39,874 bases of DNA, from contig JASJAX010000002.1 of the NCBI GenBank assembly GCA_030066755.1, forward strand, positions 1 to 39,874, given 5' to 3'. Below are positions 6,959-11,309 of the stretch, piece after piece (position 1 is the first letter of the stretch; every line of letters starts with the position of its first letter). This stretch comes from Acidimicrobiia bacterium (GTDB lineage: Bacteria; Actinomycetota; Acidimicrobiia; Spongiisociales; UBA5794). Below the pieces are notes generated by a model that ran no database searches, was not told where the DNA came from, and was given only the letters and a program-made list of their open reading frames with translations. A program made the translations under genes and the position numbers.

Positions 6959-6977
6959 GCCTGCTCAGGGAGCAGGC
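6959..6977. terminator. Bidirectional triloop hairpin between convergent genes
   Basis: Perfect 8-bp stem GCCTGCTC/GAGCAGGC with an AGG loop. It begins 2 bp after the mscS stop and contains the stop codon of the convergent regulator gene (6965-6967). The position argues for transcript-end function for both genes; no T-tract is present. Confidence 0.6.
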
Positions 6978-9900
6978 AGTACCTCCATTGGGACGCTGTC
7001 GGTGTATGCGAAGTCAGTGATGCAGACCGCACCCCAAAGCCCGTCCCCACGGAATGGGGCGACGACAGTCGAGGAGGTTGATGGTTCCACGAACGCAAAC
7101 GCGAGTTCGCGCACGCTCTGCGTGACCATGCCGTCGTCATCCGGGCTGAACCCGGGAGCGAGCATGTGTACTGCTACACCTGTGCCCACCTCCGCTTCGT
7201 TCGCTATCGACACTTCCACGACGTCCCCGACCACAATCGGGCGTTCTGTCTCAATGCGGCACTCCGTGCCGTCGAATGAGATCGTGGCGCTCGCCGTCGG
7301 CTCTGCCGCAGCAACCGAGGCCACCGTCTTGGAAGACTCCATTGACGTGCTGAGGTCCAGGCAATCAACTTTCCATTCGCCGGCGCTCACCAACACGGTG
7401 CTCAGTGTCGTTGAGCCTCCGCCTGAAGTGGTGACGGCGAAGTTGCCGAGGCCGATCGATTCATTTGGCCCAACGATCGAGAAGATCACTCGACCATTGC
7501 TCTCGTTGCGGGCATCGACTTGGAGCACGTCCTGGACAACCATGGCCATCGGGACGCCGTCGGCCCGGCATCCGTTGTCGTCGAAGGTGATCTCGACCAC
7601 CGCATCGGCGGGGGCCGGCGCGGTGATGCCGTCGCGTGGAAGGTCCGGAACGGTGACGTCACCCGCAACGACCGCCGCCTTGGCGTCCTCAATTGCCTCG
7701 ATCGTCGTCTCGGAGAGCCACCCACCGGTCTTCGCGTAGTCAACCCCTCCGTTGGTCAGGCCGAGAACCAAGTTCCCGCGTTCGCCAGCCAGGAATCGCT
7801 CGACGGCCAACTCGACCCCGCGGTCGTGGCGCTTGACCATCGAGGTGAGGATCCGTCCGGCGAGCTGGGCAGACACCGTGCGCGCCTGATCGGTGTCGAC
7901 GCCGATCGCCCACAGAGGCCGCGTGCCCGTCGTGCGATTCGCGATTACTTCGAAGACGGCGTCTCCTGCGGGTCCAATAGCGTGGTAGATCACGTCGGCC
8001 CCCTGGTCGACCAGCTGTTCGGCCCGCTCGCCGGCGAACCCTGCGGAGCCCCAGACGACGTCGGGTCCTGCGAGACTCGTCGTCGAGAGGATCCGGATTC
8101 CCTCGTCGACACTCCAGACTCCCGCCTCGAATCCGGCTCGGAAACGATCGATGACGCCGGGTACACCTCCGACGAAGCCGACGATCCCGGACTGCGTTGC
8201 GTGGGCTGCGGCAACACCGACGAGGTACGAGCCTTGCTCGGCAGCAAACGTGACATGGGAGAGGTTCGGCGGACCGTCGGGGCGGGCGAAGCCGTCGAGC
8301 AGCACGAACTCGGTCTCGCCGAACTCTGTAGCGAAGGCCGCAATGCCGTCCGGGAGGAACAAGTCCACGTCGATACCCAGGACCACCAGATCCGGTGCCG
8401 ACGCCATTGCATCGCGCAGCTCCTCCTCGACGTCGCTGAGCGAGAAGACGCTGTCGATCGTGATGTCGAAGTCGATCTCCGCTTGCTCTAAGCCGCTGAG
8501 CATCTGACTGGCGATCGGGTGGTAAGCGGGGGCGCCCTCGAAGAGCAGGACATGGGGAGGTTCGGGTCGGAGCGCCGTGATGAGGAAGCCGACTGCGATC
8601 ACCGCAAGGCTGCCGAGCGCGGCAACGAGCCCGACCAGCCGGCGTCGTTGCCTGCGTTCCGTGGCTGCGGACGTTGCCTGATCGCGGTCCCGGGCTACCA
8701 GCGACGCGTCCAGGAACTCGCGATCGAGCTCCGTGAACTCGATCGTGGCTACGTCCGCCCAGGCCTCGTAGTCATCGAGGCGGCGCCCGGTCCACAGATA
8801 GCCGGCGTCGCGCTCTGATGCGGCCCACTCGCTTGCGGCGGTGGCCAACGTCGCGTACCGCCGGAGGTCGTCTACCGCGTCGTCAATCCACCGTTGCAGC
8901 CGCGGCCACTCCGTCAGCAATGCCTCATGGGCGACCTCGACTGTGGGCTCGCCGGTCGCGAGATCCCGGTCGAGCGTCAGCAAGCGGTGAGCGGCGAACG
9001 CGTCGATCACTGTTTGGAGGTGCAGTGTGTCGATCTCGAGATCGAGCAGTTCGGCGGCCGTCGCTCGGCGTCGCCCCCAATCGCCGCCGTCGGCAATGGC
9101 GACGAGGCGCAAGAACAGCTGGCGCGAAGCGTATTGCACCTCCGCACTGAGCCCGTCGAACAGTTCCTCGGCTCGGTTCGTCAGCGACCCGGCGAGTCCA
9201 CCGAGGCGCTGGTAATCCGTCAGCGTCAGCACCCCACCCTCGGCCTCGTTATACAGATCGGTGAGGGCGTATTCGAAGAGCGGCAGGCTCCCCGGCCGCC
9301 CGAGCACATCCGAGATCAGGTTGCCGAGCAACGCCGGTTCGATGCTGGCACCGGCCTGCTCCGCAGGGCGCATCGCCGCTTCCTCGAGCTCATTGGGGAG
9401 CATCGGTACGACGTTGACGATGCCAGTGGCCATGGCCGCCCCGAAGTGGGGCGCCTCGAGCACATGGGTGTAGAAGTCGGCGCGGAGCGTGGCGACGACC
9501 ATGATGCGGGCCTTCGGATCAGCCACCGCGTTGGCGATGCCTTCGAGGAAACGATGGGCGACGTCCGGATCCGTGGTGAGGGTGAAAAGCTCCTCGAGCT
9601 GGTCGATCACAAGGAGCATCCGGCTCTCTTCGTCTGGGAGAACCCGCAGGACCGCCCGCAGCACCCCGGTCTCCGGGTCGGCGAGTTGGTCACCGAGGCT
9701 CGACGGCGCATCCAACGCGCTTCGGAGCAGCGCACTCTCGAGTTCTGCAAACGGATGCGACCCGGGGACCATGGATGCGATCAACCACCGGTCGCTCTCC
9801 GGCAGGCTCTGCTTGCGGATCGCTGGGACCAAACCGGCCCGCACGATGCTCGACTTCCCGGCACCGGATGCTCCAACCAGCGTGATGAGCCGCTCGCCTG

Positions 9901-10783
9901 CACCCAGACGATGGAGCAATCCCGCCACGACGTTGGATCGGCCGAAGAAACGGTCGGCGTCCTGCTCGCGGAACACCTGCAGACCGAGGAACGGGTTGCC
10001 CTGGTGCATGAACACGGCGGATTCGGACGGGGCCTGACCCATGTCGTGGAGCAAGACCTGCTCTTCCAGGCGACGCAGTTCCGGTGTCGGCTCAATCCCG
10101 AGTTCCTCGCCGAGGCGCTCCTCGAAACGGCGATACTCGCGCAACGCGTCGGCCTGTCGCCCCGACCGATACAGCGCCGTCATGAAGAGCCGGACCGGGC
10201 TTTCTCGCAGTGGGTGCTCGACGGTGAGCCTCTCGAGATCGGCGACCAACGCGGCGTCGACACCCGCGGACAACCTGGCCGCGTACAGCTCCTCGGTAGC
10301 GGCATCACGCAGCCCCTCGAGTCGTCGGATCTCGCTCTGAGCGAACTCCTCGTATCGAACGTCCTCGTACGCGTCGCCGCGCCACAGATCGAGCGCTGCC
10401 TCGAGCCTGATAGCTCGATCTGGATGTGTGGTACCGGCCTCCTGTGCCACGCCAACCAGGTCCTCGAATTGTCGTGCATCGATGCTGTCCGGCGGTACTT
10501 CGAGGGCGTATCCGTGGTCACGCGTGACGAGCAGGGTGTCGCCATCGGCGTTGCGATCCGGGTCGAGCGCAGCGCGGAGACGCGAGATCGTCACCCACAG
10601 CGCGTTCTCCTTGCCAACCGCACCTTCGCCCCACACGCCGTCGAGGAGGCGTTCCGTGGTGACCGCTCGACCGGGTCGCATCAGCAACATGGCCAGGACG
10701 GCGCGCTGCTTGCGTGGCCCGAGGTCGACTGGATCGCCATTGCGGGTGGCCTCCAACGGGCCGAGGACGCTGAATCTGAGCAT
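6965..10783 (-). CDS. Transmembrane SARP-STAND regulator with extracellular BMP-type sensor
   Basis: A 1272-residue fusion with these parts in order. Residues 1-95: winged-helix OmpR/SARP DNA-binding domain (R-K-Q-R-A-V-L-A-M-L-L; L-W-V-T-I-S-R-L-R). Residues 100-245: bacterial transcriptional activation (BTAD) helices. Residues 262-700: STAND/AAA NTPase with Walker A GASGAGKSS at 304-312 and Walker B LLVIDQLEELF near 390-400. Residues ~716-737: one hydrophobic helix preceded by an arginine-rich stop (RRQRRR). Residues ~743-1047: Bmp/PnrA-type solute-binding domain. Residues 1062-1150 and 1160-1270: two related beta-sandwich repeats, each with a Cys pair. By topology the regulator half is cytosolic and the sensor half is outside. 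Family knowledge: BMP domains bind nucleosides or similar small ligands; SARPs activate from direct repeats. The signal and targets are inference. Confidence 0.88.
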   Translation of the reverse strand: MLRFSVLGPLEATRNGDPVDLGPRKQRAVLAMLLMRPGRAVTTERLLDGVWGEGAVGKENALWVTISRLRAALDPDRNADGDTLLVTRDHGYALEVPPDSIDARQFEDLVGVAQEAGTTHPDRAIRLEAALDLWRGDAYEDVRYEEFAQSEIRRLEGLRDAATEELYAARLSAGVDAALVADLERLTVEHPLRESPVRLFMTALYRSGRQADALREYRRFEERLGEELGIEPTPELRRLEEQVLLHDMGQAPSESAVFMHQGNPFLGLQVFREQDADRFFGRSNVVAGLLHRLGAGERLITLVGASGAGKSSIVRAGLVPAIRKQSLPESDRWLIASMVPGSHPFAELESALLRSALDAPSSLGDQLADPETGVLRAVLRVLPDEESRMLLVIDQLEELFTLTTDPDVAHRFLEGIANAVADPKARIMVVATLRADFYTHVLEAPHFGAAMATGIVNVVPMLPNELEEAAMRPAEQAGASIEPALLGNLISDVLGRPGSLPLFEYALTDLYNEAEGGVLTLTDYQRLGGLAGSLTNRAEELFDGLSAEVQYASRQLFLRLVAIADGGDWGRRRATAAELLDLEIDTLHLQTVIDAFAAHRLLTLDRDLATGEPTVEVAHEALLTEWPRLQRWIDDAVDDLRRYATLATAASEWAASERDAGYLWTGRRLDDYEAWADVATIEFTELDREFLDASLVARDRDQATSAATERRQRRRLVGLVAALGSLAVIAVGFLITALRPEPPHVLLFEGAPAYHPIASQMLSGLEQAEIDFDITIDSVFSLSDVEEELRDAMASAPDLVVLGIDVDLFLPDGIAAFATEFGETEFVLLDGFARPDGPPNLSHVTFAAEQGSYLVGVAAAHATQSGIVGFVGGVPGVIDRFRAGFEAGVWSVDEGIRILSTTSLAGPDVVWGSAGFAGERAEQLVDQGADVIYHAIGPAGDAVFEVIANRTTGTRPLWAIGVDTDQARTVSAQLAGRILTSMVKRHDRGVELAVERFLAGERGNLVLGLTNGGVDYAKTGGWLSETTIEAIEDAKAAVVAGDVTVPDLPRDGITAPAPADAVVEITFDDNGCRADGVPMAMVVQDVLQVDARNESNGRVIFSIVGPNESIGLGNFAVTTSGGGSTTLSTVLVSAGEWKVDCLDLSTSMESSKTVASVAAAEPTASATISFDGTECRIETERPIVVGDVVEVSIANEAEVGTGVAVHMLAPGFSPDDDGMVTQSVRELAFAFVEPSTSSTVVAPFRGDGLWGAVCITDFAYTDSVPMEVLPAP

Positions 10784-10834
10784 GCGGTCTACCCCTACGA
10801 CGAGCGTACGCGTCAGTAGGGATTACGTCCCGGA

Positions 10835-10900
10835 GACCTTTCATCGACCTTTCAGACACCTTGGGAAGCCGGGAAAGCCGCCGTTTCGGGCTCTGAAAGG
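10835..10900. promoter_or_regulatory. SARP-like direct-repeat operator in divergent promoter
   Basis: On the minus strand TGAAAGG occurs at 10843-10837 and 10854-10848, exactly 11 bp apart, with a weaker third unit another 11 bp up. A TAATCC (10825-10820) follows 11 bp later as a -10 for the regulator gene, so the repeats cover its -35 region. On the plus strand TGAAAGG recurs at 10894-10900, with GGAAAGC 22 bp before it, facing the small-protein gene. 11/22-bp spacing near -35 is the hallmark of SARP operators. Confidence 0.6.
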
Positions 10901-10970
10901 GTCGTGGTCGATCGTTCCTGACAACAACGCAGCGCACCACACGCACTGCACCAGGAGGAGAGGAACCACT

Positions 10971-11309
10971 ATGTCGCAAGCAACAGCCAGCCGTTCAACA
11001 AGCGTGGCCAGCCGGTTCGCAGTCCAGCTCGCAATCGTCTTGGCGATTGTCTTCATCGTGGCGGCGGCCGGTCTCGTCGTCGGCTCAACCAGCACCGGGG
11101 AGGCTTCCGCCGACCGAGCCGGCATGTCCCAGTTGGCGCAGGACGCCTGGGCTGCACGCTACGAGGGCATCGCCGTGGGTCACGAGTCGTCGCTCACACG
11201 AGGACAGGCCGCCGCCGGAGCCCGATGGAAGGCCATCGCCAACGCTCACCAGCGGGGGCACCAGGCGTGGGCCGATCGGTGGGAAGGTCTCGCCGACACC
11301 TACGAGTAG
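10971..11309 (+). CDS. Small membrane-anchored protein with aromatic repeats
   Basis: A 112-residue protein I do not recognise. Residues 16-38 form one hydrophobic helix, and the remaining ~70 residues would lie outside. That part holds three similar short segments, DAWAARYEGIA (58-68), GARWKAIANAH and QAWADRWEGLADTYE (98-112), giving a W-A-x-R-(Y/W)-E-G-(I/L)-A theme. GGAGG lies ahead of the ATG. It is divergent from the SARP-STAND-BMP regulator and shares its repeat-containing promoter region, so it is the most likely regulatory target. A strong hairpin closes the unit, making it a monocistronic transcript. Confidence 0.72.
   Translation: MSQATASRSTSVASRFAVQLAIVLAIVFIVAAAGLVVGSTSTGEASADRAGMSQLAQDAWAARYEGIAVGHESSLTRGQAAAGARWKAIANAHQRGHQAWADRWEGLADTYE

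Follow-up and report, generated by a model that had tools for sequence, protein, structure and literature searches.

The window analyzed here is the whole stretch of 39,874 nucleotides from the start of contig JASJAX010000002.1 of an Acidimicrobiia bacterium (GenBank assembly GCA_030066755.1). Its longest open reading frame encodes a 1,272-residue protein in which SARP and nSTAND1 domains are joined to a single predicted membrane helix and a BMP domain (Table 1). A gene for a 112-residue protein diverges from it across a 187-bp intergenic region, which contains three heptamers at an exact spacing of 11 bp. The initial annotation had given 6965 to 11309 as the coordinates of its finding; the regulator is indeed there, at 6965 to 10783, but 11309 marks where the small divergent gene ends, whose membrane-anchored product had been noticed and was recovered as a frame with a single TM segment. 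The genes nearby are mostly metabolic. Between 1452 and 5733, the window carries PaaA/PaaC-type phenylacetate genes, a PaaE-like reductase and a TetR_C_24 regulator, and an integrase-core transposase is encoded on the minus strand at 143 to 1252.

Table 1. Features of the regulator locus, with positions given in the window
Feature	Position	Strand	Basis
SARP-nSTAND1-TM-BMP receptor/regulator P0001, 1,272 aa	6965..10783	minus	ORF and Pfam; AF2 model
SARP part: winged helix (residues 1-94) and BTAD (101-244)	10052..10783	minus	Pfam; Foldseek to AfsR
nSTAND1 NTPase, residues 264-660	8804..9994	minus	Pfam, E = 2e-109; motif conservation
One membrane helix plus basic juxtamembrane residues, 706-737	8573..8668	minus	KD scan, positive-inside pattern, AF2 helix
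BMP/PnrA-like domain, predicted extracytoplasmic, residues 756-1046	7646..8518	minus	Pfam, HMM match, PDB sequence matches, Foldseek
Two beta domains, residues about 1060-1145 and 1150-1272	6968..7607	minus	One Cys pair each; AF2 strands
SARP-box-like array: CCAAGGT, spacer gtct, GAAAGGT, spacer cgat, GAAAGGT	10836..10864	minus	7 + 4 bp, 11-bp period
112-aa single-pass protein, A-x-x-A-R-[YW] repeats predicted outside; candidate partner or target	10971..11306	plus	

Domain organization and putative ligand pocket

The N-terminal winged helix and BTAD domain that mark a SARP were found both by Pfam (Trans_reg_C at residues 24 to 94, 1e-13; BTAD at residues 101 to 244, 6e-37) and by structural comparison, in which the N-terminal 250 residues matched AfsR in the transcription initiation complex 8k60 with a TM score (target) of 0.90 and 38% identity (Foldseek). 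In the nSTAND1 NTPase that follows, the P-loop (GASGAGKSS, G304 to S312) and Walker B (VIDQLEELF, with D394) are both intact, and these motif residues, together with R434 and D436, are at least 90% conserved in an alignment of 33 proteins. The reading frame and the Pfam matches (Trans_reg_C, BTAD, and nSTAND1) thus bore out the SARP/BTAD and STAND protein of 1,272 residues that had been annotated.

A KD scan found one strong hydrophobic segment in the protein, at residues 717 to 735 (2.58), preceded by RRQRRR. It coincides with the helix annotated at about 716 to 737 and with a helix at residues 706 to 737 in an AF2 model of the outer half built on family alignments, where a BMP fold was predicted with pLDDT mostly above 90. 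The model of residues 1 to 1200 (mean pLDDT, 87.5) contains a long continuous helix at residues 685 to 729, leading from the end of nSTAND1 to the membrane segment, with low confidence at residues 721 to 739. The positive-inside charges and the Cys pairs of the terminal beta domains agree with a predicted membrane location in which the sensor would lie outside. The whole protein has four cysteines, C1072/C1141 and C1175/C1254, all in the beta domains after BMP; this confinement fits disulfides on the outer side, and other family members that have a post-BMP beta domain likewise have a Cys pair there. The two domains had been described as extra beta repeats, and AF2 gave strands for both, the second (residues about 1150 to 1272) in a low-confidence model. 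By sequence definition, the protein is both a TTR, with a DNA-binding domain and at least one TM region in one chain (Pfam, KD scan, and AF2), and a SARP.

The outer domain matched Bmp (PF02608) at residues 756 to 1046 with an E value of 5e-33, and its predicted structure is BMP-like, in accord with the initial annotation. The best Foldseek match was nucleoside-bound PnrA of S. pneumoniae (6y9u, E = 1.2e-22), and further matches were TmpC/PnrA of T. pallidum, Lbp, BmpD and 2hqb, a BMP-fold "transcriptional activator of comK" from Bacillus halodurans. In PnrA and BmpA, the ligand is sandwiched by two stacking phenylalanines, and an Asp and a Lys contact the ribose (PMC13325309, PMC7093131). The equivalents of this Asp and Lys (PMC13325309), D965 and K984, are some of the best-conserved positions in 30 fused BMP domains, at 90% or more. 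From the alignment, the second stacking aromatic is probably W911. At the first position, Phe or Trp is found in about half of the members and a non-aromatic residue in the 1,272-residue protein. As judged from these pocket residues, a nucleoside-like ligand is plausible for the fused family and doubtful for the 1,272-residue protein itself, because the first stacking aromatic is not kept.

Recurrence of the domain order and its outer modules

We searched for relatives with the 1,272-residue protein and with a TM+BMP profile. The same domain order recurs across Actinomycetota, at no fewer than about 30 loci in about 26 genomes, some of the loci being cut by contig ends; at least about 21 genomes in a class-wide sample of 395 have it, as do at least 5 genomes outside the class. 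The relatives are 36 to 48% identical to the protein over most of its length. A scan of named genomes yielded a single full-length relative (L071, counted once with L150), and two further genes of this order lie in the protein's own genome, on C28 (1,299 aa) and on C140 (cut by the contig end). The membrane helix is kept in every full-order member but L162, where it was not detectable. Its presence in about 26 genomes, a single-contig assembly among them, ruled out a one-off fusion or an assembly error for the order.

In the BMP-domain tree, 29 free BMP proteins grouped in one short-branched clade (support, 100/100) that held no fused domain; six rows labeled "free" or "longorf" are duplicates of fused loci. 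The end branches were mostly 0.5 to 1.35 for the fused domains versus 0.005 to 0.27 for the free BMP lipoproteins, and this several-fold excess marks a fast-evolving sensor. Three free BMP proteins encoded in the regulator's own genome (L001, L002, and L006) were distant from the free clade and the fused domains alike. That genome also encodes, on C33, an 865-residue protein (L026) with a SARP part, an NB-ARC-like NTPase and a partial BMP domain, in which no membrane helix was detected; it is perhaps an independent, soluble fusion. Tandem double BMP matches were seen in open frames of approximately 700 to 840 residues (G048:C86, G054:C5, G205:C45, G280:C67, G284:C1, G302:C54, G332:C78, and G041:C41).

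The SARP-nSTAND1-TM scaffold also occurs with other outer parts. In L090, L095 and L096 it ends in SBP_bac_1, a solute-binding family unrelated to BMP, in L091 and L092 it carries WD40 (Pfam), and in L089 and L093 nothing was recognized in the outer part. In L094, which has TPR, nSTAND1 is not followed by a strong helix. Long C-terminal halves and a basic-flanked helix after nSTAND1 characterize L091, L092 and L097, so their propellers may be extracellular. With SBP_bac_1 or WD40 in place of BMP, the sensor looks interchangeable, and the domain orders indicate that the BMP type belongs, as a single branch, to a broader scaffold whose outer modules are exchangeable. In a different SARP protein of the regulator's own genome (L028, on C135), BTAD and nSTAND1 are separated by a protein-kinase domain, and WD40 repeats come after nSTAND1.

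Neighboring genes and operator-like repeats

The 112-residue protein matched no Pfam or NCBIfam family above the cut-off. Its closest relative is the divergent neighbor in L153 (phmmer, 3.6e-10), which is in turn related to the small protein of L151. Small single-pass repeat proteins adjoin the fused gene in 10 loci and lie a gene away in one more, and two additional loci have a small neighbor with another repeat type. A small single-pass protein recurs next to the regulator in about half of the loci, and phmmer found none of this kind in the remaining loci fetched. Its gene is either divergent or co-directional; the divergent arrangement, which the initial annotation had singled out, is not strict, and relatives often have the co-directional one. 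Five loci (L025, L080, L081, L154, and L164) have instead a divergent secreted protein of about 190 to 240 residues with an HExxH motif (HEIAHAW, HELAHLW, HELGHAW, HELAHAW, and HEFAHVW, respectively), one of them about 1.2 kb away; the one tested had no Pfam family above the cut-off. The neighbor is a secreted alpha/beta hydrolase in two loci and another secreted protein in L071. Among the neighbor proteins tested, none but the hydrolase exceeded the Pfam/NCBIfam cut-offs, and no ABC permease or ATPase genes were found among the neighbors scanned.

SARP operators consist of heptameric direct repeats, classically in 11-bp units (PMC10972967). The direct heptamers with 4-bp spacers at 10836 to 10864 make up a putative operator of this type, and GAAAGGTNNNNGAAAGGT has a single mismatch-free occurrence in the 3.8-Mb genome. 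A leave-one-out matrix scan located related sites 63 to 108 bp before the start codon, on the regulator strand, for L089 as well as for 11 of 24 loci (shuffle p, 0.000 to 0.033). We then counted repeated words upstream of the first genes of 24 loci, with start codons that we assigned and with L089, which is without a BMP part, included: exact words of at least 5 nt were repeated at spacing 11 in 16 of the 24 regions, versus 1 to 6 at neighboring spacings, with a harmonic at spacing 22 in 10 of 24. For words of at least 7 nt, the count at spacing 11 was 9 of 24, versus 0 to 2 elsewhere (3 at spacing 22). Among 140 further genes from these loci, spacing 11 did not stand out (18.6%), a control that rules out the box as a generic helical-repeat artifact.

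Box placement tracks operon layout, being before the regulator if the neighbor is divergent and before the small gene if it is co-directional, where the start of the small gene was chosen after the start of the regulator had shown no box. The strictest count, confined to regulator starts, gave AAGG-N7-AAGG in 7 of 24 fused loci, with approximately 0.08 expected from base composition by our estimate; the opposite strand had none. By our reading, six loci (L082, L083, L084, L151, L156, and L162) have an unlike heptamer array (TAGAGCG/TCGAGGC type) upstream of the small gene, also spaced by 11 bp and reaching four copies in L083 and L162. A genome-wide regulon of the box was unsupported: sites with one or two mismatches numbered 5 + 5 versus 2 + 2 in the reversed control, near background, and those elsewhere in the genome were mostly within open frames. 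It could also be that a different regulator, one that favors repeats of the same kind, uses these boxes. We take the 11-bp repeats as independent support for a predicted link between the 1,272-residue protein and gene control, and they likewise favor the original suggestion that a BMP fold is wired to gene control here.

Proposed mechanism and comparison with known systems

Sequence and structure models together make it likely that the protein activates transcription as a membrane-anchored one-component regulator, with its STAND switch released by a ligand from outside. A small molecule, possibly nucleoside-like, would bind the external BMP domain and close its two lobes, and this movement would pass through the single helix and the continuous juxtamembrane helix to the nSTAND1 module. 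From what is known of the family, nSTAND1 would then swap ADP for ATP and assemble, lining up several SARP units that could bind two to four heptamers spaced by 11 bp. AfsR recruits RNA polymerase at heptamer repeats, and the SARP units would do so in a similar way. The first target would be the regulator's own promoter or operon, which in many loci would include the neighboring gene, whose product is an extracytoplasmic protein of single-pass or secreted type. This product may act as a co-receptor comparable to ToxS or TcpH, or it may be the output.

The adjacency of a small repeat gene in about half of the loci, with its repeats predicted on the same outer side, would also suit an outer BMP domain that acts as a docking platform rather than a solute binder, sensing the single-pass repeat protein or another envelope protein and reporting the state of the envelope or membrane. 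The loss of the first stacking aromatic in the 1,272-residue protein and the much faster divergence of the fused domains than of free BMP lipoproteins point in the same direction. However, the BMP fold is intact, D965 and K984 are at least 90% conserved in the 30 fused domains, and several loci are without the small protein, and we consider docking unlikely. BMP proteins usually serve ABC importers and the fold is retained, but a bifunctional part that still feeds an ABC transporter while the SARP part supplies feedback control is very improbable: the anchor is an internal TM helix and not a lipobox, no ABC permease or ATPase gene is among the scanned neighbors, and the fused domains fall outside the clade of free BMP lipoproteins. 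We give equally little credence to a conflict (defense) STAND sensor, whose outer domain would detect phage or competitor products while the SARP head only regulates the response; passages of two papers discuss STAND NTPases as conflict-system components (PMC7159879, PMC10907252) and the sensor evolves fast, but there is no effector domain, the SARP part and the boxes indicate gene control, the surrounding genes are mostly metabolic, and PADLOC profiles gave no match.

Extending the ligand-released activator to its relatives, we see an even chance that Actinomycetota contain a general undescribed class with a membrane-tethered SARP-nSTAND1 core, interchangeable external sensors (BMP, SBP_bac_1, and possibly WD40), STAND modules that an external ligand causes to assemble on heptamer arrays of 11-bp spacing, and a co-component in the small single-pass protein with repeats. 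The SARP-nSTAND1-TM-BMP family is apparently undescribed. As the initial annotation had supposed, no characterized family of this architecture and no published account of it turned up in the literature searched, which lay mostly outside subscription journals and supplements. The proposal is directly testable, since it specifies an operator, the catalytic residues, a pocket and a partner.

With AfsR and the other large SARPs (SARP + NB-ARC/AAA + TPR; SARP-LAL), the protein shares the SARP head, the NTPase switch and the 11-bp heptamer repeats. Those proteins end in TPR or LAL, whereas here an nSTAND1 NTPase is followed by a membrane helix and BMP. The classes in a SARP review (PMC10972967) include no membrane-spanning or solute-binding type, and the word "transmembrane" is absent from it. 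The family extends SARPs, which have mainly been regarded as antibiotic regulators that have no membrane part. It also extends BMP proteins, otherwise transport parts. The nucleoside-binding lipoproteins PnrA/TmpC and BmpA/BmpD have the same fold and the ribose-contact Asp and Lys, but the present domain is not a lipoprotein, has no adjacent transporter genes and is fused to a regulator. The B. halodurans protein 2hqb is a BMP-fold protein tied to gene control by its PDB title; in contrast, it is a separate protein, and its solved chain of 283 residues is without SARP or STAND.

ToxR, TcpP and CadC, which are TTRs, likewise have a DNA-binding domain inside, one helix, a sensory domain outside and no kinase, and the small single-pass partner encoded next door recalls ToxRS and TcpPH. 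They differ in being without a STAND NTPase and a solute-binding-protein sensor, and the present protein has a SARP with BTAD as its DNA-binding part; the main-text passages covered from a TTR census (PMC10269533) make no mention of SARP, STAND or solute-binding TTRs. The swap of sensors suggests a general receptor scaffold. If the proposed mechanism is true, an extracytoplasmic solute-binding domain works a STAND ATPase via one helix, which would be another route from an outside signal to a promoter within one protein, in contrast to kinase routes and to simple ToxR-type regulators.
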